Shown: piece by piece, positions 17,670 through 33,943 of the stretch
Layout: the number at the start of each line of letters is the position of its first letter
How positions within the stretch are numbered: position 1 is the stretch's first letter
Origin: Thermothielavioides terrestris NRRL 8126
Lineage: Eukaryota > Ascomycota > Sordariomycetes > Sordariales > Chaetomiaceae
Assembly (NCBI RefSeq): GCF_000226115.1
Contig: NC_016457.1
Span: 8,432,001-8,496,000, forward strand
DNA length: 64,000 nt
Direction of reading: 5' to 3'
Translations under genes and position numbers: made by a program
The notes under the pieces: model-generated
Told to the model about the DNA's origin: nothing
Database searches by the model: none
The model's input: the letters and a program-made list of their open reading frames with translations, nothing else

Positions 17670-20560
17670 GTTGGTTTGTTTGATGAGACCCGTCTTCGTG
17701 AGATGCGGAATTGAGTGATTCTGTATGGAAGAGAGCCTTCGACTTGGTTGGTGCTGGAGTGGTAGTATGTGAGGAGTGAGGAGATGTGAGTTAGGTGTGC
17801 TGGTTCGAAGAGGGTGCGAGTATTTTCGCAGGCTGAGTAGCCAATCTCATATATACCAATTCCAGGACCGCACTCGTGCCAGAAAAAACAGAGCCATGTT
17901 GTGAACAGCTTGCGAACATCAGATGGAAGATGAGCACAGCACGGCTGTTCATTGCTTCCAAGACTTTACTTCAGGCTGGCATGAGCGCTTGAACATGGGG
18001 CGCTCCCAGATCAGGTGGGTTGTGATGTATGGAACGAGGCGCCCGCGGCGGCTCTCATTCAATGTCCACGGCCTCGTGCCGGTACATGTCTGTCAAGCAA
18101 TGGGGACCAACACGTTTCTAGTATAATGAACTCCTTATTGATCGATTCCGACTCTTCACCAACAGCCTCCCTATCTCTGTTGGAGGAGAGTCCTGGTCTG
18201 ACCCTGAGGTCATGTGAATTGGCTTCCCTTCATGTCGTCGCTTCCTTCAAAACTCGGGGCCCTCAACGTGGTTAGGGATACTGTCGTCCTTCGGACACAG
18301 AATCTATAATAAGGCCGGCCGGTTTTGCGGCATTGGGGCGGCCACACTGGAGCACCATGCCCTCTCCCCTTCTTATACAGTTCCATTGTTGAGGTCCAAC
18401 CAGTGATGTGGTTCATCCCCCCTCTTGGCAAGCACACATATTCTGCGTCGGTCAGGACCTCTCGCGCAAGCATTGCCCAAACGCCAGCAAGAAGCCTTCA
18501 TCCATGCCTGGTCATTGTTTGGCTAATGCTACGATACAGCCCGGTTTGCTCTGTCAGCGGTCGGCACGCAAGGTTGGTGCGAATGAAGTCCACGAGCAAG
18601 ATCACACCGGCGAGTTCTGTTTGGGTGTTGCTAAAGTTGCTAGTTTGTTGACTGATGTAGCTGGAGAATGACTGCTTGGGAAGCTGGCCACCCGCAGTAA
18701 GTGGCATTGCTGTCGTCTTCTTGTCATCGCCGCCCAATGGTGTGTTTCTCGAGACCCGTTGTCTCTGTTTGTTGAAGGCAGCGCTGGCAATAACCCGGTG
18801 CCCATCTCTAGACTCCATGATTCTCGGAACATGATCCTTGACCAAGCGCGATCGATCGGTATCTCATGCCAAAAACAGCCTCCCAATCAAACGCTCCGCA
18901 ACCTCTTCCGTGTTTCCTTCTTGTCTTCCCCTGGCGGAGATTGGGCTCAAGAACTCGTTTGTTGTCCGACCCGGTGGGCTTGGAGGGCATCCTGAGAGCA
19001 GTCATACACAACGGACGCGGAGTGGTGTCGGAAGTTGCTGGGCTGGTGGCGGAATCTGCAGGTTGTTGAGCCGGTGCCAAGTATTGCTCGGTTATTCTGG
19101 CTTCTGCGGAGCGGACAAGCTGGGCGAGGACAAAGAAGTCGTCAAGATCGAGATGGCCCTGGGAGAGACTTGGCCCGTTATTCCCTGCTCTGCGCCTTTG
19201 TTTCCCCCTGTATGATTTGACTACCCACCTCTTTTCTGCCAGACGGCCAGTGCTGTCCCTGATGTTCTCGCAATCTTGACGAGCTAGTGGTAGCTGCTGT
19301 GTACAGCACTTCTCTCGTTTCCATGTTTGCCGATGACCTGTTTGAATGGATGGGCCGTGGAGAACGGCAGCATTAACGCACTTGAGAGACAGAGCAGGCC
19401 ACTATGGAAGCTTGTCCTGCTGCCGTCCTTGGTTGCCGCGAAGTGCCCAGTGTCCACCAGGCCATAAGCAAAATGCTGGACCCTGAATTGATTCTTCTCT
19501 CGCCCTGATTTAAGGGATTGGTAGCATCCCTGTGACACAGATGATACCAAGTTAGCGCTCGCTCTCTTACTGCAAGACTGACCATCTACTTATCCAAATG
19601 GATAGGAACGGTATCTGGACACCCGGTGCCTCCTGATTTCTAAGCGATCATCCCGTCCCTCCTTCTTTAACAGCTCGCAGATCGTGCTCACCCACGTAAG
19701 AAATTGGTCGCCGCTCCGCCGTGAACAGGGTTGGGAAAGCAGACGGAACTGCCTGCCCAGTCCTGTTTGTCTCTCCAGTTCGGAGCGCTCCTCCGCCGCG
19801 ATTGTTTGCCTGATATGCTCCTGTCGTCCAGACCGTTCGGTATCCTCCCTGGCTTGTTTAACTTGGGCGTCGATGGCTCCGCGGAAATGGAATCGAAGAA
19901 GGGGTTCGTGCCTAAGCTCATTGTATCCTAGGAGATAGGACAAACCGGCAAATGTCAGCCATCAATCTCAGTCCAGATGACCAGCTAGTCACTGTTGGGT
20001 GTCTCGAGAGTTCCTTTCCAAGGGACATGAAGGGGATAAAGCAGGAACAGTCTGGACATGACCGTGGCCCTGAGGGTTTGGAGAAACGACTCTGGTAGTC
20101 AGTAAACTAGAGTCAGTGGGTTGATAACCCTTCTCGGTTGAAGAGAGGTGTGCCCAAAGCCGAGAGTCGCTTCCTGCGGATAAGACGGTTCCGCCAGGAG
20201 TCTGGGCTCGATCTGGTATGTCTGATGCGCCGGCCGCTCGTGTGCTTGGAAATGATGTCTTGCCTGCGGAATCACTTGATTTTCGCGCTGCTAACTGGCA
20301 TGTCGATGAGCGGGATGCCCGAAACACTCGGTCAAAGGAACACAAGCCGGCTGTCGACGGGCAGCGCAGGCGGGCCCCCGGGCCCGCCGCAGGCCTGCCC
20401 GTTTCCTGGCCCTGCCTTTCCCCCCGAGCCTACTACCCTGGCTCGCTCTCCTCCTCTCTCTTCTCTTCCCGCCCACCGCCGCCCTCAACTTGTCTCCCCA
20501 CTCCCGATCGATCCTTACATTACTGAACAAGCAAGCATTCAATTCTCGCCTAATGCCACG
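17670..20560. other. Long stretch without a secure gene
   Basis: Minus-strand fragments at about 18498-19000 and 19590-19943 have protein-like composition (for example WVSTICELLKKEGRDDRLEI) but no ATG start, no joinable exons and no family match. They may be a decayed gene. From about 20360 the DNA becomes CT-rich and probably holds the start of the non-coding host transcript described next. Confidence 0.4.
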
Positions 20561-22161
20561 CAGTCTTGACTGCTCCCCATCTTGCTCGCCTCAGCGTGCT
20601 TCGGCTCGCCTCGCCAGCCTGCGTCTCTCAGAGCAACGGTAAGCACATCACGACATTCCACCGATCGCTGCTTGAGCCTGGCGCGCCAGGCCGATCTGCT
20701 GACTGACTACCTAATCGCCTTTGCGGCTGCGCCGAACTGATTCTCGCTGCCCCAGGCAACGGTGGCCGGTAAGTTTCCTTCCTCTCGTCTCTCCCGCCTT
20801 CTCTCCTCCAGCTGGTTGGCCGGTTCCTCTCGGGGTCTTGCCCTAATCACTGGAAGCCATTGTGGCCCAGGTTGTCCGGCCAGCCTCTTTCCCGCATTCT
20901 TCCTTCGGCCACATCCTCCTCCTCTTCTCCTCGCAAGCCAGTCGGCTATTCAACCTTCCCGCAACCTATTCTTCCTCCTCGAGTTTGATTTCCCTGGTGG
21001 AGCCTCGTTTTTCTATAAAATCCCCCCTCCTCACATCTTTTCCGCATCCTCTGCTCCTTCCCACAACCATCCTCTCCATCTTCCTGCTCCATCTGCCTTC
21101 TTCACTCTGCCTCTTCCAACTTTCTCCTTCAATCTTCCTCTTCCCTTCTCCCTCTTCCATCTTCTTCCCCCATCTTCCTCCTCCATCTTCCTCCCCCATC
21201 TTCCTCCTCCATCTTCCTCTCGCGCGTCAATGTCTTACGGTTTTCCTCACTCGCCCCATTTCTACCTTCTACATCGGTTTATTTCTCCTCGACGATTTTC
21301 TTTTGCTCACACTGAGCAATCGCAGACGCGCTTGTGCAGTCGCGGCCAGCGCGATGCGCCTGACCGCGACGCGCTCTGATCAGACGGATTTGACAGGCAA
21401 GTATCACTGCAGTATTCTCCCTCACTTCCTTCTTCTTCCTCTCCATCTTGCTTCGCTTTGTCGCCTACCTCGCCATCCATTCAGCTTTTCTTTGCCATCG
21501 CCCATGGTAATTCACTGCCTATCTTCTCTGCCTTTTCTCACTCAGAGCAGCCAGCAAGCAAGCAGCACCATTCCCTCGCAATGCACACTCAGCGCACGAC
21601 TTTCCCACCGTCTCTGCTCTGCTAACAACCGTTGCGATGCACACTAGGTCAATCGCTTGTCGGTCGGTCAATTGACTGCGCCCAGCTCCCAGTAAGTCGC
21701 ACTCCCACAACCCACTGGTTCCTTTCCTCTCTCTTCCTTTCCACAAAACCTCATCATCATCACGCTTGCGTGCGACCGCGTCGAATCAAAATCACTAATT
21801 CGAATCGCTCGCCAATGCCAGCAGAACTCAACAACCCGTCTCAAGCATCGCGGCCTGCTCGGTGTTGAGGTTCTTCACCCAGGTCGGTCTCCCCGTTCAG
21901 CGAATTATTCAGGGGTTGTCGCAGTCGGCCCAGCGACCAAACAAGTCGTCGTCAATTTAAGGTTGACCCGCAGCAGCGGGTCCGACATCCTCGCCGCTGA
22001 CCGGGGCGCCCTCGCCGCTGACCGGGGCGGGCCCCGGTCAATCCGGCCAGCCGGGTCCCAAGCAATGCCCGATTTATCAGACCGCGATGCGCTCACACAT
22101 CGGATCGCACAGAGTGGATTGCCCGCAGGGTTACATCCCCGCTTCCTCGAAGACAAAGTCA

Positions 22162-22288
22162 CAGTTCCCATGATGACAAAAGACATACAAGACACATGGC
22201 ACCTTGTGGCAGAGTTGGCACTTGGTCAGTCCCTCTGCGGGCTTCGCCCACAGATGGTGCCGTCTACAACAATATCTCTGAGGAGCAG
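22162..22288 (+). ncRNA. C/D-type RNA unit 1
   Basis: Half-stem GTTCC (22164-22168), C box ATGATGA (22170-22176), D box CTGA (22278-22281) and half-stem GGAGC (22282-22286), which pair with one G-U. Inside, GCAGAG (22209-22214) pairs perfectly with CTCTGC (22233-22238) and the loop holds TTGGTCA (22222-22228). Confidence 0.6.
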
Positions 22289-22509
22289 TTGATTTTTCTG
22301 CTTGCTCTGTCTCCGATGACGAGATCACATGTCTGAGGAACTCGGTGGGCACTGGGGGCTTTTTCATTTATTTTCTGCTTCCTTCAGTCATTTTTTGTTA
22401 TTTTCTGTTTCTGTGCGCGGGCAGATTTTGTGCCCTGCCCTCACTACCTGGCTCTTGTTTCTCATCTTTGCGCACACTTTCGTTCCCATCCCCATTTTCT
22501 AGTTGTGAT

Positions 22510-22640
22510 CTTCCTCTCGTTGTCTTCCTCTCGTTGTCTTCCTCTCGTTGTCTTCCTCTCGTTGTTTTTCTCTCGCTGTTTTCCTCTCGCTGTCTTCCTC
22601 CTCTCGTTGTCTACCTCTCGCTGTCTTCCTCTCGTTGTCT
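22510..22640 (+). repeat. 14-bp pyrimidine tandem repeat
   Basis: Four perfect copies of CTTCCTCTCGTTGT from 22510 to 22565, then about five diverged copies. It lies in a spacer between RNA units 1 and 2 and may act as a pyrimidine tract. Confidence 0.85.
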
Positions 22641-22705
22641 TCCACACGCAGTGTCACTCTCGTCGTCTTGCTCAACTACCTACCTTCCGCTCCCTTGATC
22701 GAGAG

Positions 22706-22884
22706 CCGCTCCGATGATGAGAAAGCCTTGTGCAGCTGGGCGCACGACAGGTCAGGCGGCAGCCCAGCTACACAAAACCATCCTTCTGAGGGAACCACAC
22801 GTGGTTCCCCATGAAAAGGGCTCTCAGGCCCACAGGTCTCTGGCTCTCTGAGCCTTAGAGACAGCAAATTATTCTGAGGAGCAC
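22706..22884 (+). ncRNA. C/D-type RNA unit 2, long class
   Basis: Half-stem GCTCC, C box ATGATGA (22714-22720), terminal D box CTGA (22874-22877) and half-stem GGAGC (22878-22882), about 179 nt, the same length as units 16 and 17. AGCTGGG (22734-22740) pairs perfectly with CCCAGCT (22763-22769), with AGGTCA in the loop. A second perfect hairpin, GGGAACCAC with GTGGTTCCC, lies at 22790-22809. An inner CTGA at 22786-22789 could instead end a shorter 90-nt RNA. Confidence 0.55.
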
Positions 22885-23047
22885 AAGACCAGGTGTGTTA
22901 GTCACTCTTGGGCTTTGGGCTGTTTTCTTGTTCATGCTGTTGTTTTCCTCCATTTATCTGTTTTGCCTGTTTTTCTTTGGCGCACTTATTTCTTGCTGGT
23001 TCCACTTCTTTGCCAACAATCCGTTTCCTCTTGTTGTTTATTTCCTT

Positions 23048-23136
23048 TGGTTCCTATCATGACCCTTTGTCGAGCTGGCTGAGGGCCTGGTCAACCCCGA
23101 GACAGCCAACGATGCCGACATCCTTCTGAGGAGTGC
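23048..23136 (+). ncRNA. C/D-type RNA unit 3
   Basis: C box ATCATGA (23056-23062, one mismatch), D box CTGA (23126-23129), terminal half-stems GTTCC and GGAGT. The internal hairpin has outer GGCTG with CAGCC and inner GGG with CCC, loop CCTGGTCAA. Confidence 0.55.
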
Positions 23137-23223
23137 GATACTTCGTATCTGTGCCGCTCTCATATTTCGCAACATTTACTCGGCACCCTTTCCGTTCCCC
23201 TGGCCGGAGCTTCTTCCAGAACT

Positions 23224-23300
23224 CAGCTCCTGTGATGAGCCACAGCAGGTGTTGGAAATGAGCCTGGTCAGCCCTCCAATACCTGGTACCGGCATTTTCT
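23224..23300 (+). pseudogene. RNA unit 4, lacking its D box
   Basis: GCTCC (23226-23230) and C box GTGATGA (23232-23238) are intact and GAGCCTGGTCAGCCCTC is present, but compared with unit 5 about 14-15 bases holding the D box and the GGAGC half-stem are missing just before the shared flank TTTTCTCGAG. Probably a dead copy. Confidence 0.6.
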
Positions 23301-23354
23301 CGAGTTCAGCTTTCAGTCGGTCACCGCCATTTTTCTTTTACTGTACACTGTACT

Positions 23355-23430
23355 GAGCTCCGATGATGAGCCAAGTCTGGGAACAGGGCTGGGTACCCCT
23401 CGGATTCCTGGACCTACTTCTGAGGAGCAG
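23355..23430 (+). ncRNA. C/D-type RNA unit 5
   Basis: GCTCC (23357-23361), C box ATGATGA (23363-23369), D box CTGA (23420-23423), GGAGC (23424-23428). The internal hairpin is AGGG with CCCT, but the loop reads CTGGGTA rather than CTGGTCA. It is one half of a 139-bp tandem duplication with unit 6. Confidence 0.65.
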
Positions 23431-23493
23431 CATTTTTCTCGAGTTCAGCTTTCAGTAGGTCGCCTCCAGTTTTCTTTTCCTATACACTGCACT

Positions 23494-23569
23494 GAGCTCC
23501 GATGATGAGCCAAGTCTGGGAACAGGGCTGGTCAACCCTCGGATACCTAGACCTACTTCTGAGGAGCAG
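23494..23569 (+). ncRNA. C/D-type RNA unit 6
   Basis: GCTCC (23496-23500), C box ATGATGA (23502-23508), D box CTGA (23559-23562), GGAGC (23563-23567). Internal hairpin AGGG-CTGGTCAA-CCCT. The spacer and unit repeat those of unit 5 at a 139-bp period. Confidence 0.7.
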
Positions 23570-23641
23570 ATGATCTACGGAACCAGTCGTTCCTCCAGTT
23601 TTTGTTCCCAATCGATGGCAAGCCCGTCCTTTCACCGAGTC

Positions 23642-23717
23642 TCGCTAGTGTGAGATCCAGGTGCCAGAAATGGGCCTGGTCAGCCCATTAATACCTAGCA
23701 CCTATGTCTGAGTAGCA
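23642..23717 (+). ncRNA. C/D-type RNA unit 7, diverged C box
   Basis: The C box position reads GTGTGA, one base short of the consensus. D box CTGA is at 23708-23711. The terminal stem has changed on both sides: GCTA (from 23644) with TAGC instead of GCTCC with GGAGC. The internal hairpin is a perfect TGGGC-CTGGTCA-GCCCA. Confidence 0.5.
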
Positions 23718-23787
23718 GATGGCCTGTTACTCGCACCAGTCGTTTTCTGATTTTGATTCCCAGTTGATGCTTGTCTCTGTTAGAATT

Positions 23788-23857
23788 CCGCTCCTGTGAT
23801 GAATCAGGTGTTTGGGGAGACCTGGTCAGCTCTCCAACACCAACTGCTGAGGAGCAG
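23788..23857 (+). ncRNA. C/D-type RNA unit 8
   Basis: GCTCC (23790-23794), C box GTGATGA (23796-23802), D box CTGA (23847-23850), GGAGC (23851-23855). Internal stem GGAGA with TCTCC around a CCTGGTCAGC loop. At about 70 nt it is the shortest unit. Confidence 0.7.
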
Positions 23858-23890
23858 GGAATCTAGTCGTTCCTTCGATTTCGCGGAACT

Positions 23891-23964
23891 CAGCTCCTAT
23901 GATGAGCCAAGTCATGGAACAGGGCTGGTCAACCCTTTGATTCCTGACACCTTCTGAGGAGCAG
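23891..23964 (+). ncRNA. C/D-type RNA unit 9
   Basis: GCTCC (23893-23897), C box ATGATGA (23899-23905), D box CTGA (23954-23957), GGAGC (23958-23962). Internal hairpin AGGG-CTGGTCAA-CCCT. It begins only about 34 nt after unit 8. Confidence 0.7.
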
Positions 23965-23998
23965 ACAGAGGACTGCTCAACCAATTGTAGCTTTATTC

Positions 23999-24019
23999 TT
24001 TTTTTTTTTTTTTTTTTTT
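23999..24019 (+). repeat. Poly-T tract of 21 bases
   Basis: An uninterrupted T run in the spacer between units 9 and 10. It could be a pyrimidine tract or simple slippage. Confidence 0.9.
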
Positions 24020-24125
24020 CTGGCGTTTCCCTGACGACATTCATCTGTCTGACTTGGGGACGTCGCTCCTAATATTCCACCATGTTTCTTTCCCTCATCA
24101 CGATTATATTTCCAGCCTTTTCGCC

Positions 24126-24225
24126 CCGATGCCGATGATGAATTCAAGGTGTGCAGCAACAAGTGCCAGAGGGCTGGACTGGTCAACCCCCTCTGTGACA
24201 GCTCACACATTGTCTGAGGCATCCT
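24126..24225 (+). ncRNA. C/D-type RNA unit 10
   Basis: Terminal stem is a perfect GATGCC (24128-24133) with GGCATC (24218-24223), different from the other units on both sides. C box ATGATGA (24135-24141), D box CTGA (24214-24217). Internal stem AGAGGG with CCCTCT around a loop with ACTGGTCAACC. Confidence 0.7.
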
Positions 24226-24239
24226 GCAAGCGCGCAGTA

Positions 24240-24272
24240 CCCCCACAAGGCTGTCTTGAGCGCTTGTGGGGG
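24240..24272 (+). other. Perfect 10-bp hairpin between RNA units
   Basis: CCCCCACAAG pairs with CTTGTGGGGG across a 13-nt loop. A second small hairpin CGAGGC-AC-GCCTCG follows near 24279-24292. It could be a processing signal for the precursor. Confidence 0.55.
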
Positions 24273-24307
24273 GGCTGTCGAGGCACGCCTCGGCACCCCT
24301 CCACGGG

Positions 24308-24450
24308 TTGCTCCCATGACGAACTCCCTTGTGCAGCAAGTAGCGTGGAGACCAGGTAGCCTCTTGTGTTAGCAGGGGAATTGGGTCAACCCCTGTGAAG
24401 CCGGAGACCAGGCTCCGCACGAAAGCTCACAAGCTTTCTCAGGCATCAGC
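24308..24450 (+). ncRNA. C/D-type RNA unit 11, degenerate
   Basis: C-like ATGACGA follows GCTCCC. The 3' end resembles unit 10 (CAGCTCACA then TCTNAGGCATC), but the D box reads CTCA. AGGGG pairs with CCCCT around a loop with TGGGTCAA. The terminal half-stems no longer match. Probably a decayed relative of unit 10. Confidence 0.35.
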
Positions 24451-24453
24451 TGA

Positions 24454-24520
24454 TGTCAATGATGAGAACCTTCCCCAGGCTTAGTGGTCTGGAGGAGGCT
24501 GGAACAATTTCCGAGGACAC
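24454..24520 (+). ncRNA. C/D-type RNA unit 12, doubtful
   Basis: TGTC and GACA flank C box ATGATGA (24459-24465) and a D-like CCGA (24511-24514). A CCAG/CTGG hairpin lies between, with TGGT in the loop. One D-box mismatch and a short stem keep confidence low. Confidence 0.3.
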
Positions 24521-24782
24521 TCTATCTCTACAGCACGCGTTGTCACTTCACCCTCTCACTCTTCCCCAGCATCTTTACCTCACAACAACCCTCCCATCAC
24601 CCTTCCCCAGCATCTTTATGCATCCTTTTTCCTTTGTCTTTGCATTTTTGCGGACCCCACATGGCTTGGGAAGGAGCGTGATCCGACTCAGGCCATGTGT
24701 TCTTTTGTATTTCCTAGCTCACTCCCTCGCTCCCTCTCGTTCCTACCCATCCCTCCTTCCCATGTGTTTGTTTCGACCTCCC

Positions 24783-24940
24783 CCTCCAATGATGACTCGG
24801 TCCTTGTGCGGCGCGGAAGGAGGTGGTCGGCCTAGAAGCACCGCACTGCAGTTCTTCTGGTGCCAAGTGGTGCCAGAAACAGGAGCTGTTGGCTCTCCGG
24901 TTCCATTGGTCAGCGGAGGGTCAGGACATTCTGAGGAGTT
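24783..24940 (+). ncRNA. C/D-type RNA unit 13, long class
   Basis: CTCC with GGAG terminal stem, C box ATGATGA (24789-24795), D box CTGA (24931-24934). First hairpin GTGCGG with CCGCAC holds TGGTCG. Second hairpin CTCCG with CGGAG holds TTGGTCA. Between them, TTCTGG pairs with CCAGAA in a third hairpin. Confidence 0.55.
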
Positions 24941-25293
24941 CAATAGTGTTGCTTTCTCATGGCCCAATGCTGGTAACCTAGCCATTATGGGTGTTACCCG
25001 GGGCTTCATTAGTTCTTTTCGTCCCTTCCCCTATGTCTTTTTGTTCCGGCTGAGGCCTGCTGTCTTGTTCCTTTTTCGTTATTACCTACCCTCTTGACAC
25101 CATCTCCATTACCTTCTTTCCATCATATGGAGGAGCTGAGAAGAGAGCATTTTTCCCCTCGAGGAGTGGAGGCCTGCTCGGGTTCACAGCATCTGACATG
25201 ATGAACGACTCATCCCTAATCTCATTCTGCCTTCCCATCTTCAACTTTCTTTCATTCATGAACTGGATGCCTCCTATTCTACACGCCTTTGAG

Positions 25294-25426
25294 CGGCTCC
25301 GATGATGAACACTGCTGCGATGCCGAGAAGTGGCTGGTCACCCTTCGAAAGGCACGCCCGCCCGAGCCCGGTGGGCTGGTCACCCCGGAGCGAATGGGTG
25401 AGGGTTGGCAGCATTCTGAGGAGCAA
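25294..25426 (+). ncRNA. C/D-type RNA unit 14, long class
   Basis: GCTCC (25296-25300), C box ATGATGA (25302-25308), D box CTGA (25416-25419), GGAGC (25420-25424). Two CTGGTCA loops: GAAGTGG-CTGGTCA-CCCTTC and GGG-CTGGTCA-CCC. Confidence 0.65.
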
Positions 25427-25449
25427 AGGTTTTCACCAAGTTTAATTTT

Positions 25450-25509
25450 CACGCTTGGATCTATCACGCTTGGATCTATCACGCTTGGATCTATCACGCT
25501 TGGATCTAT
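25450..25509 (+). repeat. 15-bp tandem repeat, four perfect copies
   Basis: CACGCTTGGATCTAT four times in the spacer between RNA units 14 and 15. Confidence 0.95.
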
Positions 25510-25549
25510 GTCTCTCAAAGTTCTTTTGGATTGTTTTCCCTTTTAAGAA

Positions 25550-25692
25550 TGGCTCCTGTGATGAGCAATCCCTCGCCGAGGAAGTGGCTAGTCACCCTTC
25601 GCAAGGCGAGCGATGCCAGGCCTGCCCAAGGTCCCAGAGGACTGGTCACCCCTGTGCGAACCAGTGGCGGTTGGCATTTTTCTGAGGAGCAA
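25550..25692 (+). ncRNA. C/D-type RNA unit 15, long class
   Basis: GCTCC (25552-25556), C box GTGATGA (25558-25564), D box CTGA (25682-25685), GGAGC (25686-25690). The first loop reads CTAGTCA in a GAAGTGG/CCCTTC stem, the second CTGGTCA in an AGG/CCT stem. Confidence 0.65.
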
Positions 25693-25775
25693 CGGTATTT
25701 TCACCGGTTCATGATTTTCACTCCCAGATCTGTGTTTTTTCAAGTTCTACCCAGAATCGTCTTCCCCTCTAAGAA

Positions 25776-25951
25776 TGGCTCCTATGATGATTGCGTTGTC
25801 AAGAAGTGGCTGGTCACCCTTCAATTTGCACGCAAGGTAGCCAGATACGGGCTGGTCCTGGTCTGGTTATCCTGCCATACCTGCCTAAGGTCCCAGTGGG
25901 CTGGTCATCCCTGTGCGATCCCGTGGCGGTTGGCAATACTCTGAGGAGCAA
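25776..25951 (+). ncRNA. C/D-type RNA unit 16, long class
   Basis: GCTCC (25778-25782), C box ATGATGA (25784-25790), D box CTGA (25941-25944), GGAGC (25945-25949). Two CTGGTCA hairpins; the second stem is CAG-T-GGG with CCC-TG. Close paralogue of unit 17. Confidence 0.65.
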
Positions 25952-26022
25952 TGTTTTTATCCGGTTTATGATCCGTCTCGCTTTGAGTTTCTCTCTTGCA
26001 ACAATGACTTCTCCCCTGAAAG

Positions 26023-26201
26023 TCGCTCCGATGATAACCATTGCGTTGCCAAGAAGTGGCTGGTCACCCTTCAAATGGCACGCAAGGTAGCCAGATACGG
26101 GCTGGTCCTGTTCTGGGTATCCTGCCAAACCTGCCTAAGGACCCGGTGGGCTGGTCACCCCCGTGCGAACCGGTGGCAGTTGGTAGCATTCTGAGGAGCC
26201 G
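26023..26201 (+). ncRNA. C/D-type RNA unit 17, long class
   Basis: GCTCC (26025-26029), C box ATGATAA (26031-26037, one mismatch), D box CTGA (26191-26194), GGAGC (26195-26199). Two CTGGTCA hairpins. The second stem reads CGG-T-GGG with CCC-CCG, a paired change relative to unit 16. Confidence 0.6.
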
Positions 26202-26388
26202 TTGCACTTTAATGAGGGGTTTTTGTTTTTTTCTTGTTCTTCTGCTCTGTTTCTTTTCTTTGCTTGTGCTTGCTACCAGGGTTCAAGTGTGCCCTCTAGA
26301 AGGCTAATTTGGAGCAGCATGCTCAAACTGTCCGTCCATGTGGCCGCGTCAAGGACAGGCCGACACACTGGAGGATGCCTGGACACAA

Positions 26389-26470
26389 GGCCGATGATGA
26401 GACAGGGACCATTCAAACGCATGCTCGGCGAGCTTGCATAATGATGGAAACTCTGTCAGTCTCTGAGGTC
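26389..26470 (+). ncRNA. Canonical-looking box C/D snoRNA candidate
   Basis: C box ATGATGA (26394-26400), D box CTGA (26463-26466), terminal GGCC with GGTC (one G-U), and an inner TGATGG that could be a C' box. It lacks the CTGGTCA hairpin, so it may be an ordinary guide snoRNA at the end of the array. The rRNA target is not identified. Confidence 0.5.
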
Positions 26471-26600: not shown

Positions 26601-29600
26601 CTGGGAAGCCGAACTCTCTTGTTGACATTGACAGCCAAGGCGATTAACAGCTAGTTACACTAGCATGTTCGGCGCATGGGGGCTAAGATAGCGAGGAGGG
26701 GCGCCACACGTGGGGGGCGCAAGTTCTGAACCTCGGGGTCTGTGATGACACGACGGTACCTGTTCTGAGAGATGTGGCAAACGCCTATTCTCGATGACCT
26801 AAAAAAAGGAGTCTGAGACCCCCAGACATCTTTGTCTGCCTTTCTTCAATATGAATTTGGGAGCAAGCCCGAGAGAGCACTTGGAGCGGATAGAGTTGGA
26901 GAATCAGCAGAAGAATCTGACGAACCTCGACTCAGATTCATTGCCTACCCCGTTTCTTCTACTGTGACTTCGTTTGCTTGAAGTATGTTAGCAGCAGACC
27001 GGGATGAACCTGCACATCCCAATGACACAATCAGAAGGGATCCATTGAACAGAATGGCCCAAACCCTCAATTATATCAGTTTCCAGCCTTGATACTGGGT
27101 CCTTCCAGATCTAGAAATATGAAAACTGGCACGAGGGTTTGCAGCAGCCAAGGAGTTGTGGGACAACGACAATTGCACGGCCAATCGCTCATGTACCATC
27201 CCCAAGGCTGCACAAACTTCGGAGACATACACAGCATATGCATTCCAAGGCAAGCTTTACAACCGCATGATGATATGGACTTCCTAGGTCGGGGCAAAGA
27301 TGCACGTCTGCCTGGTCCCGGCTCCATTCCTCTCGACTCCAGCAAGCGCAAGGCTCTAAAGAACGCTTGGTTACTTTGCCTCCCGAAAAGGTCGTCTACG
27401 AAAAAAGTCGAGAGACGACTCGCCTATGCAAGCATAGCCACTGGACTGGTGGAATATAAGGCAACCAGCGATGAGACCGATGGCAAAGCTTTCCATATGT
27501 GAGTCACAGAAGAAAAGGGGAAGGGGCAAGCTGCTCAGCATGACCTTCAACGACTGGACGCTGTGGCAGCACAGGCAAAGACCTATCGCAGCGCCGACTG
27601 TCTCCGCTGGGAAGGAGAAGGCCAATGTAAATCGCTCCCGACAGGCAGCCTTCCTGACGACACATCCCTTCGCGAACTTCAGGCAACACGGTGATACTCG
27701 AAAATGCTCGATTTGTAAATACGCCCCTTCTCCGTGGCACAAGCAAGGGGTCCATGCCACCTATCACGAAGCTTAATTCAACTTCTCGAAGGCAACCAGA
27801 GCTTCGATTGAGTCCCGTGACAGGCTGCCTCCGATGCTGGTGCGACAACTTCTGTCCTATCATCACAGGCGTACAAAATGGGCAGCACACAGCCCTACGC
27901 TCCAAAGGGTGAAGAAAGCTCACAGTGCGCTGGCACGGTGCTGGAAGGAGCAGCCACTCGGCGTGAAACCTAACCACAAGAGCCCAATCTGTGATCAAGA
28001 CCTTCCGGAGAGGCGTGGGGATATCATGGTTCGAGAAGGCTCGGTCACTGCAGTGCCTCGATTTGACCGACTTCAGTCAGGACGGAGTGACTTCACCAGA
28101 AAAGTGAGGCAACCCGGGTACCAGTGGACAGGAAACGCAGAGGATGATATCTCGTCGACGGAAGGACGACGCAATCAGGGGAAGCAGAACCATCGGGACA
28201 ACGGATAACGGCCGCGGTCGGCATCCGACCTCATCGATGGAAGCCGAGATGGCAGCCCTTAGATGGCGCAAACCGGCCAAGAAGTGTCGCATCTGGACAA
28301 CACCGACGCATGATCGGCGCGAGAGGTGGCAACGCAGATAAGGAGACGGAAGCAAAAGGAAGCAAGGCACCAAGGTGTCTGCAGGAACCAGCCCACACTC
28401 CCTTGTTGTCGGGCGGCAAGGCATCGCCGACCAAGACGGGCGGAACGGAACGGCTGGTGCCTGAGCGCCGCATAGGGTGAACGCACACCCATCGGATGCC
28501 CTGCTCCCTCGTCCCCAAGGCCCGCGCCAACGAGCCCGGCCATACCCATACCCCCATACCCCCGAGTCAAGGTCAGGAAAACCAGACAAGCGGATCATCT
28601 GCGAGAAAGCAGCGGAATCGTCCGGGCAGAGGCAGATGCCCTCCTGGAAAACTACCAGACGGAAGCAGCCCTCCTGCCCCGGCCACCCAATCTCAGCCGC
28701 CGGATAACACATGAGGTGAACAACACACCGCCTCCCTCGAGGGAAGAGGCAGGGGAGGCGTGTGAGTCACCGACAAGGGCGCGCTGCGGGTCGTGCGGAA
28801 CCGGTGGGACGGGGATGGATGCGTCTTTGGTGCAAGAGTGAGTGAGTTTGCATTATCGCCGAGGCTGCCTGTCGCCACGGCTCATCCTCGGAGGACCTTA
28901 GTTCCTTCCACTCATTCATCGTGTTGGTAAACAGTCAGCGGTTGTTTGACGGTGAAGACTTCTCCATCAGCAACAAGCCGAGGACGATCCGGGAGCTACG
29001 ACGCCGTGATGTTGATCCCGTGACCACGCTCAGGTCCGCGCGCAGCGCCAGAGCTGGAGCGGTGAGTCAACTACTTCGGCTTGGCATGGCGATGGCAACT
29101 GTCGTGTCGATGGGGAAGGGAAAGAAGGGCTGCTTGGCCTCCCTGAATTCGTGGAGAGTCTTTTCCCAGCCACACAAGGCGGTATCGTTAGGGCAGGGTC
29201 CATATTGCGGCCTAAGGAGTCCGTGAACGGAGAGCATGCATGGCCGAGGGGTGCCATTAGAAACGCTGAACAGGTCAAGTTTGCACAGAAGATAAGTGAC
29301 GTAGGCAGCATCGAGACATGCAGGTAATCTCCATCGACTGTGGTACCCGCTCGCTCGCTCTGCTGCTGCCGGTTCTCGTCGCAGGAGCGGGTGCTCGTGG
29401 ATCAGTTGTTGGGCAAAACCGAACGGTGCCTGATTTGGGCCGAAGTTCATGTGTATTCCGTTGTGCACGGAGGATTCCGTTGAAGCTGGTGGACCCTGCA
29501 ACGTTTTCGGAAGGGAACAAAAAGGAACTCTGAAGAAGGGCTGGTCCTTGCACTCGCCACACGGCCCATCAGGACCTGAAAAGGTCTGGACAAACGATAG

Positions 29601-32600: not shown

Positions 32601-33943
32601 AGTTTTATGAAGTTAACGTTAGTGTGCATGTGTCCATTCAATATGCGTGCCATGCTTCTCCAAGCTCCAAATCGAGGTGGCCAGCTGGAGCGTGACGGAA
32701 GTACAGTGCTGGCACTGCGCCAGGGACCCCGCTGAGCGGCCTGCACACGCTTGTATCCGGGACATGCGAACTCGAACCACATCGTAGATTGGAAAGAGGA
32801 CAAGAGGATTCGCCCAACTTGCTGCAGCTGTGATCAATCCATCCAACAAAATGGATCTGAATGGTGGATGCACCTGCTGCTTGGCATCCCCAGATTTTCC
32901 ACTGGTTGACCATACCGTAAATGTCAACTGCAGAGTCTATACTACACTAGAACGCTGCGGAGTATACTCCATCAAGGTTAGCGAGCTCCCTTGGTCAGCA
33001 ACCGCCAACGCCTTGGTCAGAATCGAGTGAGAGCGCGTGAATGGCGAGCACGACCCCGCACATTGATTGCCAGTTGTGCAGAGGCGCTTCCTTCCCTTCC
33101 TGGCTGAGGAGCGGCAAGATCTTGAATGCAGCTTGCCACACCAAGTTCCCGAGACAGAAGGAGCAAACGTCAGCCGGCTGCCGCCTTCGCCCACCCAAAT
33201 GTTAGCGTCCCGTCTCCTGCATGCAAATCTGGGGTCCCCGATCGCGTTCACGACTTGTGGCCCCGAGCTAAGGCAAGCTGTCGTCATTAAGGGAGGTACG
33301 CCCACCACCGACGTTGCCTATGGTTCACTCAACTACATATTGCCGACTTCGCGAAAACATCAACATCAAGCGTGGAGAAATCGATTCGTCATCCAGCTGC
33401 TGTTTCCGATTAGTTAGACGAACGCCGCCGCCGTCGCACCCGTCGGACGAATCGGCCTCACCAACTCTGTCAACCCGATGTTGCACCTGTGCCAGCTGCT
33501 TTGATGACTCTTGTGCTCGCCACGGGACTGGTTCTCATCAATACCAGGACTCCCGCAGCGCAGGGCCTGTTAACAGGTGCTGCGCAACTGTTTGAGTTAT
33601 TCCAACCTCCTGGGTACTCAGCTGATGTGCCCTTCTGTGAGACACCCCAACTCCGACTCATCGCCTCATCTCTGTCGGAGTCATCGAGGGGCCCCCGCTC
33701 ACAGCCGCCGTCTTCGATTTGATCGCCGCCAAGTCGCCAGCCCCCGTTGCTTGCTCGTGAAGGAGGAAAATTTTTCATCGGCTGTTGTTTTTCGACGAGA
33801 ATCCCCTGCACAACCGGTCGAAGTCCCCGGTCATGTCGTGCACCAATTTCGCTTAGCCTCCCAGAGGCTTGCCGCCGCAAATCCGGGAGCCTTTTCCGCC
33901 TGTGCAAATTTCATTGTGGCATCAACAGGCCCCAGGCAGGTGC
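26601..33943. other. 7-kb stretch without a supported gene
   Basis: The many ORFs here overlap in several frames, start at non-ATG codons or lack any motif, and no splice-joined gene could be built. A three-fold imperfect repeat built on GAGAGCCAGGATTA/GAAAGCCAGGATTA lies at about 31569-31617. I see no terminal repeats or transposon protein motifs. It may be old, decayed repeat DNA. Confidence 0.45.

Follow-up and report, generated by a model that had tools for sequence, protein, structure and literature searches.

A tandem array of box C/D-ended units carrying predicted hairpins with a nearly constant tip in Thermothielavioides terrestris

Results

We have analysed a 64,000-nucleotide (nt) window of the genome of the fungus Thermothielavioides terrestris NRRL 8126 (assembly GCF_000226115.1, contig NC_016457.1, positions 8,432,001 to 8,496,000), in which 17 diverged units with the ends of box C/D small nucleolar RNAs (snoRNAs) lie in tandem on the plus strand at 22.16-26.20 kb. 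Box C/D snoRNAs are stable RNAs bound by Snu13, Nop56, Nop58 and fibrillarin. The C/D ends are intact in 11 units and damaged in six, which are degenerate or short-stemmed, and 16 units hold predicted hairpins tipped mostly by CUGGUCA. The original prediction, made from the sequence, had proposed about 17 units, all on the plus strand, that open with GCTCC or a variant and RTGATGA and close with CTGA and GGAGC. The count and strand were borne out, 11 units being recovered by a mechanical scan and six more as degenerate or short-stemmed copies, and one-sided word counts and the scan agree on the ends.

The scan covered both strands of the 64 kb and accepted a box C of the form NTGAYRA, a CTGA 40-230 nt further on and a terminal stem of at least 5 base pairs (bp). 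It returned 16 C-D pairings, all on the plus strand between 22170 and 26813, with none on the minus strand and nothing on either strand outside 22.1-26.8 kb. Behind these pairings are 13 box C sites, which correspond to 11 array units, a neighbouring unit at 26736-26822 and a box C at 23232, which has no surviving box D of its own and finds its sole partner in the box D of the next unit. Decayed boxes or short stems mark the six remaining units, which begin at 23050, 23226, 23644, 24310, 24454 and 24784. Word counts are similarly one-sided: between 22.1 and 26.25 kb CTGGTCA occurs 14 times on the plus strand and never on the minus strand (19 and 5 times in the whole 64 kb), CTGAGGAG occurs 12 and 0 times in the array region (16 and 3 in the whole), RTGATGA occurs 14 times and once in the 4.15 kb of the array region, and all nine occurrences of GCTCC-N1-3-TGATGA are on the plus strand within the array. 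The shorter word GGTCA is found on the plus strand 68 times per 64 kb. RTGATGA and CTGA stand near the ends of 11 of the 17 units, the scan tolerating NTGAYRA, and the terminal stems of the 11 scan units, which would bring C and D together as in box C/D snoRNAs, are 5-6 bp long. These stems are altered yet remain paired (GCTCC/GGAGC, AGTTCC/GGAACT, GATGCC/GGCATC). Repeats of a protein-coding sequence were considered and rejected, as C-to-D lengths of 55, 59, 61, 61 and 64 nt keep no single frame.

A covariance model (CM), termed R1, was built from five short units and run on the window. Counting the five training units, 15 of the 17 are recovered at E <= 0.22, and those at 24310 and 24454 are missed. 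Three R1 matches outside the array were taken as chance, the best of them, at 33495 (E 0.005), having no box D.

The units differ in length and state of preservation. Unit 1 (22163-22342) was found by the scan with a 6-bp AGTTCC/GGAACT stem, box C at 22170 and box D at 22333; its interior contains a CTGA at 22278, a box C-like ATGACGA at 22316 and the loop TTGGTCA at 22222-22228, with p 0.31 in the hairpin test described below. Unit 2 (22708-22882), also from the scan, has a GCTCC/GGAGC stem, box C at 22714, box D at 22874 and the loop CAGGTCA at 22748-22754, and an internal CTGA at 22786 is followed by a GGGAACCAC/GTGGTTCCC stem. Box C is degenerate (ATCATGA) in unit 3 (23050-23134; loop CTGGTCA at 23087-23093; CM match 19.1 bits), and unit 4 (23226-23305; loop CTGGTCA at 23264-23270; CM match 20.9 bits) has an intact box C and has lost box D. 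Boxes and stem are intact in unit 5 (23357-23428), in which the variant loop CTGGGTA (23389-23395) is mostly paired in the unconstrained fold. Three further short units are intact and carry CTGGTCA, namely unit 6 (23496-23567; loop 23528-23534), supported by scan, CM and hairpin test, and units 8 (23790-23855; loop 23822-23828) and 9 (23893-23962; loop 23925-23931), both supported by scan and hairpin test. Unit 7 (23644-23716; loop CTGGTCA at 23676-23682) has a decayed box C, GTGTGAG, and a GCTA/TAGC terminal stem in which one C-G to A-U change has kept pairing. The scan assigned a 6-bp GATGCC/GGCATC stem to unit 10 (24128-24223; loop CTGGTCA at 24179-24185).

Units 11 and 12, both missed by R1, are degenerate: unit 11 (24310-24447) runs from ATGACGA to CTCA with no clear terminal stem and has the loop TGGGTCA at 24382-24388, and unit 12 (24454-24519) has CCGA as box D, a TGTC/GACA stem and no GGTCA loop. 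Unit 13 (24784-24938) has a 4-bp stem, CTCC/GGAG, box C at 24789, box D at 24931 and the loop TTGGTCA at 24906-24912; its CM match spans 24783-24823 (E 0.12). The last four units are long. Two hairpins are predicted in unit 14 (25296-25424; CTGGTCA at 25334-25340 and 25376-25382; scan and hairpin test) and in unit 15 (25552-25690; CTAGTCA at 25588-25594 and CTGGTCA at 25642-25648). Three are predicted in unit 16 (25778-25949; CTGGTCA at 25810-25816, CTGGTCC at 25852-25858, CTGGTCA at 25901-25907) and in unit 17 (26025-26199; CTGGTCA at 26060-26066, CTGGTCC at 26102-26108, CTGGTCA at 26151-26157), the latter with ATGATAA as box C. A second common word, near CTTGTGCAGC, was observed downstream of box C in the units starting at 22708, 24128, 24310 and 24784; the 25S ribosomal RNA (rRNA) site reads CTTGTGACCAG.

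A hairpin with a GGTCA loop had been proposed for nearly every unit. Hairpins tipped by CTGGTCA or a near variant are predicted in 16 of the 17, with the qualifications that the unit at 24454-24519 lacks the loop and that the four long units have two or three hairpins each. The 16 units hold 22 predicted hairpins, the tip being CTGGTCA in 14 and a near variant in eight, and in short units the C-to-D interior is predicted to form a single long imperfect hairpin. Hairpin formation was evaluated against shuffled arms with the seven tip nucleotides kept unpaired at 22 sites, comprising 21 within units, the CTGGGTA unit being left out, and one GGTCA in a spacer at 23319. A helix encloses all 21 unit sites and does not enclose the spacer site. 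Twelve of the 21 reach p <= 0.05, with a combined p of 3e-13 in which paralogues are counted as independent. Since enclosed loops range from 7 to 15 nt (exactly 7 nt in seven sites, 8 nt in four and 9-15 nt in ten), the term 7-nt loop denotes here a conserved segment of 7 nt at the tip. In unconstrained interior folds at least five of the seven letters are unpaired at 15 of 21 sites, the unit at 23226 being left out.

Among the 22 sites the segment reads CTGGTCA in 14, TTGGTCA and CTGGTCC in two each, and CAGGTCA, CTGGGTA, TGGGTCA and CTAGTCA in one each. Information content, computed from 12 representatives, is 1.19, 1.18, 2.00, 2.00, 2.00, 2.00 and 1.59 bits at the seven positions and 0.04-0.96 bits in 27 flanking columns; the middle values are inflated, as most sites were picked by the word GGTCA and the set is without CTGGGTA and CTAGTCA. 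Across all 22 sites G4 is invariant, UC occupies positions 5-6 in 21 and A7 is present in 20. The scan units were found by their C/D ends and not by the loop word, and 10 of these 11 contain GGTCA, the eleventh (23357-23428) having CTGGGTA instead.

The loop could instead be read by a protein, either as a Smaug/Vts1-type element (CNGGN0-3 on a nonspecific stem) or by another hairpin-binding factor, the array serving as a decoy or localisation tag; the CAB box of small Cajal body-specific RNAs is such a tag. A start of CNGG is found in 18 of the 22 loops, several loops per long unit would suit a decoy, and small loops on variable stems match the Smaug recognition element consensus (PMC4053848). 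However, four loops break CNGG (two UUGG, one UGGG, one CUAG), yet the 3' letters UC and A7 are nearly constant. Vts1 is described as making no contact with the 3' side of the loop (PMC4053848), and because it does not touch that side the conserved UCA is left unexplained by Vts1; a cytoplasmic decay factor would also be an odd partner for a C/D RNA. We regard protein binding as unlikely.

Pairing of the loops with one another was also weighed. With two central G-U pairs allowed, UGGUCA can pair with itself, and kissing loops could thereby assemble multimers, for which several loops per RNA and a self-duplex energy of -6.0 kcal/mol for CUGGUCAG would be favourable. That energy depends on a 3' G, without which the self-duplex falls to -1.0 kcal/mol for CUGGUCA and -2.2 kcal/mol for CUGGUCAC, and the base after the loop is not conserved. 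Selection for self-pairing would be expected to yield UGAUCA or UGGCCA. This explanation is very improbable.

In contrast to the tip, the stems vary, and they had been claimed to remain paired while doing so. Column-wise alignments are poor in the stems because stem register relative to the loop slides by one base between groups, the loop being 7 nt in the unit at 23644 and 8 nt in that at 23496, for example. An alignment-free test was applied in which 3' arms were exchanged among representatives of 12 groups, set by eye, in 20,000 permutations. With 16-nt arms the summed pairing of own arms is -186 kcal/mol compared with -112 +/- 12 for swapped arms, and none of the 20,000 permutations was as good. 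The p value is 5e-5 with 12-, 16- and 20-nt arms and 0.003 with 8-nt arms. When representatives were redrawn at random 200 times, the highest p reached was 0.001 (12 nt), 0.0005 (16 and 20 nt, the floor being 0.0005) and 0.0225 (8 nt); with nine coarser groups it was 0.0025 (12 nt), 0.001 and 0.001 (16 and 20 nt) and 0.0255 (8 nt). For individual sites, own pairing ranks in the best tenth of cross pairings in 13 of 22. Arms change together between unit groups, 5' arms pairing better overall with their own 3' arms than with those of other units. A lack of significant covariation had been named beforehand as one result that would overturn the proposal: covariation is not significant when measured column by column and is significant by arm swap. 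We take the arm swap as the stronger test because it puts the question directly. The claim of variable but paired stems is thus upheld by own arms outperforming swapped ones and not by column-wise covariation.

These data bear on whether the array is merely decaying, that is, whether one ancestral structured C/D RNA was duplicated, many copies are pseudogenes and the loop is common by recent descent. The damaged boxes or short stem of six of the 17 units would be expected in this case, and neighbouring units are up to 93% identical. Neutral decay, however, would wear loop and stem equally, whereas here stems differ by group with arms still fitting their own partner and the seven letters stay near-constant over the 12 groups. 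Decay as the whole explanation is accordingly rated quite improbable, somewhat below protein binding.

Rfam gave no match at gathering score in the 64-kb window, U3 included, and at E <= 5 the three matches within 21.6-27.4 kb all lie outside the 17 units. U3 is present elsewhere in this genome, and the array units have no match to the Rfam U3 model, a comparison made without individual searches for boxes A, A' and B. ARAGORN, run with bacterial settings, found no transfer RNA (tRNA) genes in the window. In the genome as searched (36.9 Mb, 6 contigs), BLAST of two array segments matched the array alone, and two unit patterns found three and four array units and nothing else. A strict unit pattern was matched neither in IMG/VR nor in 84,980 prokaryote genomes, which accords with a fungal origin, and no such RNA family is named in the titles and opening abstract lines of the papers listed in the literature searches. 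A distinct fungal C/D-ended family with a structured shared loop had been proposed; boxes, compensated terminal stems, arm swap, loop conservation, the lack of an Rfam match and the lack of a copy found elsewhere in the genome all agree with it, column-wise covariation being the part that does not. On this sequence evidence the array is a real, single-locus set of diverged C/D-ended units with a nearly fixed tip, and would represent an unusual form of box C/D RNA.

The possibility that these are ordinary methylation guides, duplicated in tandem, with hairpins that merely position guides and with targets in the missing rRNA or in other RNAs, was examined against the ribosomal DNA (rDNA). The rDNA was located by a fungal rDNA query (98% identity) and matches Rfam SSU_rRNA_eukarya and 5.8S; 1,709 nt are readable and the remaining rRNA is absent from the assembly as read, in which N runs occur. 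In the sole copy found (L011:1-3790) unrelated sequence gives way to rDNA within 18S, as would be seen in a truncated copy or where an rDNA array ends. Twenty slots from 18 C/D intervals (16 array, 2 neighbours) were compared with these 1,709 nt, with 60 shuffles each; the position used for the unit 12 slot was wrong by 5 nt, and the set excludes unit 4, for want of a box D, as well as the outer box D of unit 1. The best slot, in the unit at 23790, has a 10-nt match just 3' of 5.8S, in internal transcribed spacer 2, equalled in 3 of 60 shuffles. The other slots were equalled in 6 to 59 of 60 shuffles, giving no convincing guide within the 1,709 nt.

Canonical boxes and terminal stems, the small extent of rDNA compared and the common clustering of fungal C/D snoRNAs (PMC2780460) are consistent with guides. 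The slot 5' of box D, on the other hand, varies among paralogues by substitutions and indels. Its mean identity is 0.71 in four long units, compared with 0.93 and 1.00 for loops and 0.75-0.81 for stems, and 0.50 in five short units. Interior folds of 15 units leave 1-12 nt (median 5) unpaired just before box D, and guides would need no common loop. A methylation-guide function of the units is not supported by comparison with these 1,709 nt, and we consider it improbable, to about the same degree as protein binding.

A partner for the loop was sought among the RNAs of this genome. TGACCAG, the exact complement of CTGGTCA, occurs once in readable rDNA, in 25S at L011:5401 (GCGCTTGTGACCAGACTCG). 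The predicted duplex of loop and 25S is -10.9 kcal/mol, or -13.4 kcal/mol when the loop is followed by C. TGACCAG is not inside the U2, U3 or U4 RNAs of this genome, U1, U5, U6 and tRNAs not having been searched; near matches are UGACC followed by G in U4 and UGACC at the box D of U3. The best candidate partner found is possibly the UGACCAG segment of 25S rRNA, its identity being the weakest step of the interpretation.

Several features surround the array. At 26736-26822 on the plus strand a further C/D unit is closed by six uninterrupted base pairs (GGGGTC/GACCCC), has a CTGA inside at 26765 and lacks the CTGGTCA loop. It looks like a conventional guide snoRNA, and no convincing target for it was found within the 1,709 nt of rDNA. 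A C/D-like unit at 26388-26470 (plus) has a strong interior hairpin without GGTCA in its loop, and 10 nt near its box D, CTCTGTCAGT, match 18S exactly (ACTGACAGAG), equalled in 6 of 60 shuffles. Tandem repeats are present in spacers and upstream of the array, as 14-bp CT-rich units at 22509-22673, a 15-bp unit repeated four times at 25449-25509 and a perfect 21-bp pair at 21989-22029.

The single TATAWA on the plus strand between 20 and 27 kb is a TATAAA at 21014. It lies within a plus-strand region, 20400-21830, that also includes a CT-rich stretch and GTAAGC/GTAAGT donors at 20639, 20769 and 21692 and may represent a spliced non-coding host transcript 5' of the array; donor and acceptor motifs occur upstream of the array at 20.6-21.8 kb. 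Introns around each unit were rejected, as donor- and acceptor-like sites, examined by eye, do not bracket units. A scan for bacterial-type promoters and terminators gave values near those of shuffles and is not meaningful in a fungus. At some of the six U2, U3 and U4 loci (L013-L018) an upstream element near ACGTGCACAGACCAC was seen by eye before the TATA box; this small nuclear RNA-type element is not near the array, its matches with up to three mismatches numbering 8 in the 64 kb compared with 7.6 expected. A polycistronic plus-strand transcript of the array is likely.

Discussion

Combined, these observations lead us to suggest, tentatively and as something short of probable, that the units encode box C/D ribonucleoproteins that have no methylation-guide role and present one loop to a single common RNA partner, possibly UGACCAG of 25S rRNA. 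The units would be processed from a single plus-strand transcript, and their C/D ends are predicted to fold, like those of all C/D RNAs, into a k-turn to which the core snoRNP proteins bind. The loop may act as a YUNR-type U-turn recognition loop, YUNR being found at positions 1-4 in 20 of the 22 loops. We infer a 25S-docking function, in which the loop would pair with UGACCAG of pre-25S rRNA and keep this segment open in early folding. The mode could be akin to that of U3 as a chaperone, extra copies and multi-loop units raising dose and avidity.

A number of results weigh against this interpretation. Nine of the 21 hairpins lie above p 0.05 relative to shuffled arms, and all seven nucleotides are unpaired at just 11 of 21 sites in the unconstrained interior folds. 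When 23497-23567 is folded as a whole, the best structure has the loop base-paired to box C; within a C/D particle, protein would occupy this box. Whole-unit z-scores, computed for 10 units, are mostly near 0, one being below -2, and were dropped as evidence. In a five-unit alignment (A3), two pairs change on both sides, and 45 to 370 of 500 shuffles equal this, depending on the measure. Among 16 units aligned in pairs, the fraction of double changes that preserve pairing is 0.44 versus 0.33-0.43 in slid controls, and that of single changes 0.22 versus 0.32-0.41. Own arms rank at 0.37 or worse in five of the 22 sites of the arm swap. With regard to the partner, variant loops reach just -4.3 to -9.9 kcal/mol on the 25S site; they pair worse and therefore do not follow the 25S target. 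The choice of 25S as partner was made post hoc, and one or more 7-mers of this kind are expected by chance with a probability of 0.098 in 1,709 nt and 0.29 in 5,600 nt. Three of the seven target bases are mostly paired in the fold of the 25S fragment. As most rRNA is outside the assembly as read, guide targets or other partners may lie there.

It is slightly less probable that the array typifies a new class of box C/D ribonucleoproteins. In this view, arrays of non-guide snoRNAs would present hairpins that all carry the same U-turn kissing loop, with as many as three in a single RNA. Such arrays would chaperone or sponge up one RNA in a multivalent and dose-amplified manner, the simplest choice being 25S UGACCAG. 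Recognition by C/D RNAs normally relies on single-stranded guides. If loop docking on a common RNA is correct, recognition can also be loop-based, with the C/D particle as its scaffold; the loop is then kept on stems that change together, and the guide slot drifts. The array would also provide a fungal case of tandem snoRNA paralogues, and its loop yields a directly testable prediction.

The array can be compared with several known systems. The mammalian SNORD115/116 arrays also consist of many tandem C/D paralogues on one strand with no assigned rRNA guide role; their copies are near-identical and are not known to have such a hairpin. U8 and U13 are, like U3, non-guide C/D RNAs. U3, a non-guide chaperone (PMC5832005), shares with the array C/D ends, a structured interior and, if the 25S interpretation is right, a chaperone role that involves pairing with pre-rRNA. 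In contrast to U3, the array units would pair through a closed apical loop, and they have no Rfam U3 match. Fungal guide box C/D snoRNA clusters are similar in RTGATGA, CTGA, a short terminal stem and clustering on one strand (PMC2780460), whereas the array has no conserved guide by box D, has long hairpins between C and D and has a loop common to 16 units. Most snoRNA genes of Neurospora crassa are described as singletons, duplicates being rare owing to repeat-induced point mutation, which acts on duplications of more than ~400 bp (PMC2780460); the array, in contrast, holds many paralogues, each unit being shorter than ~400 bp. Compared by description, the N. crassa orphans CD53 and CD55 are likewise filamentous-fungal C/D RNAs without an assigned target (PMC2780460), and the 'atypical snoRNA' of Li and Breaker 2017 is likewise unusual in make-up, being reported as mostly intronic, with conserved guide-region letters said to be complementary to rRNAs (PMC5640933). 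The Smaug/Vts1 element resembles the array in that its small loop begins with CNGG and its stem may have any sequence, and differs in that the array also conserves UCA at the 3' side and departs from CNGG in four loops. Finally, the YUNR motif has been described in the recognition loops of loop-loop antisense pairing (PMC4485353), and the YUNR fit of the array loops likens them to these bacterial U-turn loops; the array differs in being eukaryotic and borne on C/D RNAs, with a candidate target and a predicted loop of 7-15 nt.

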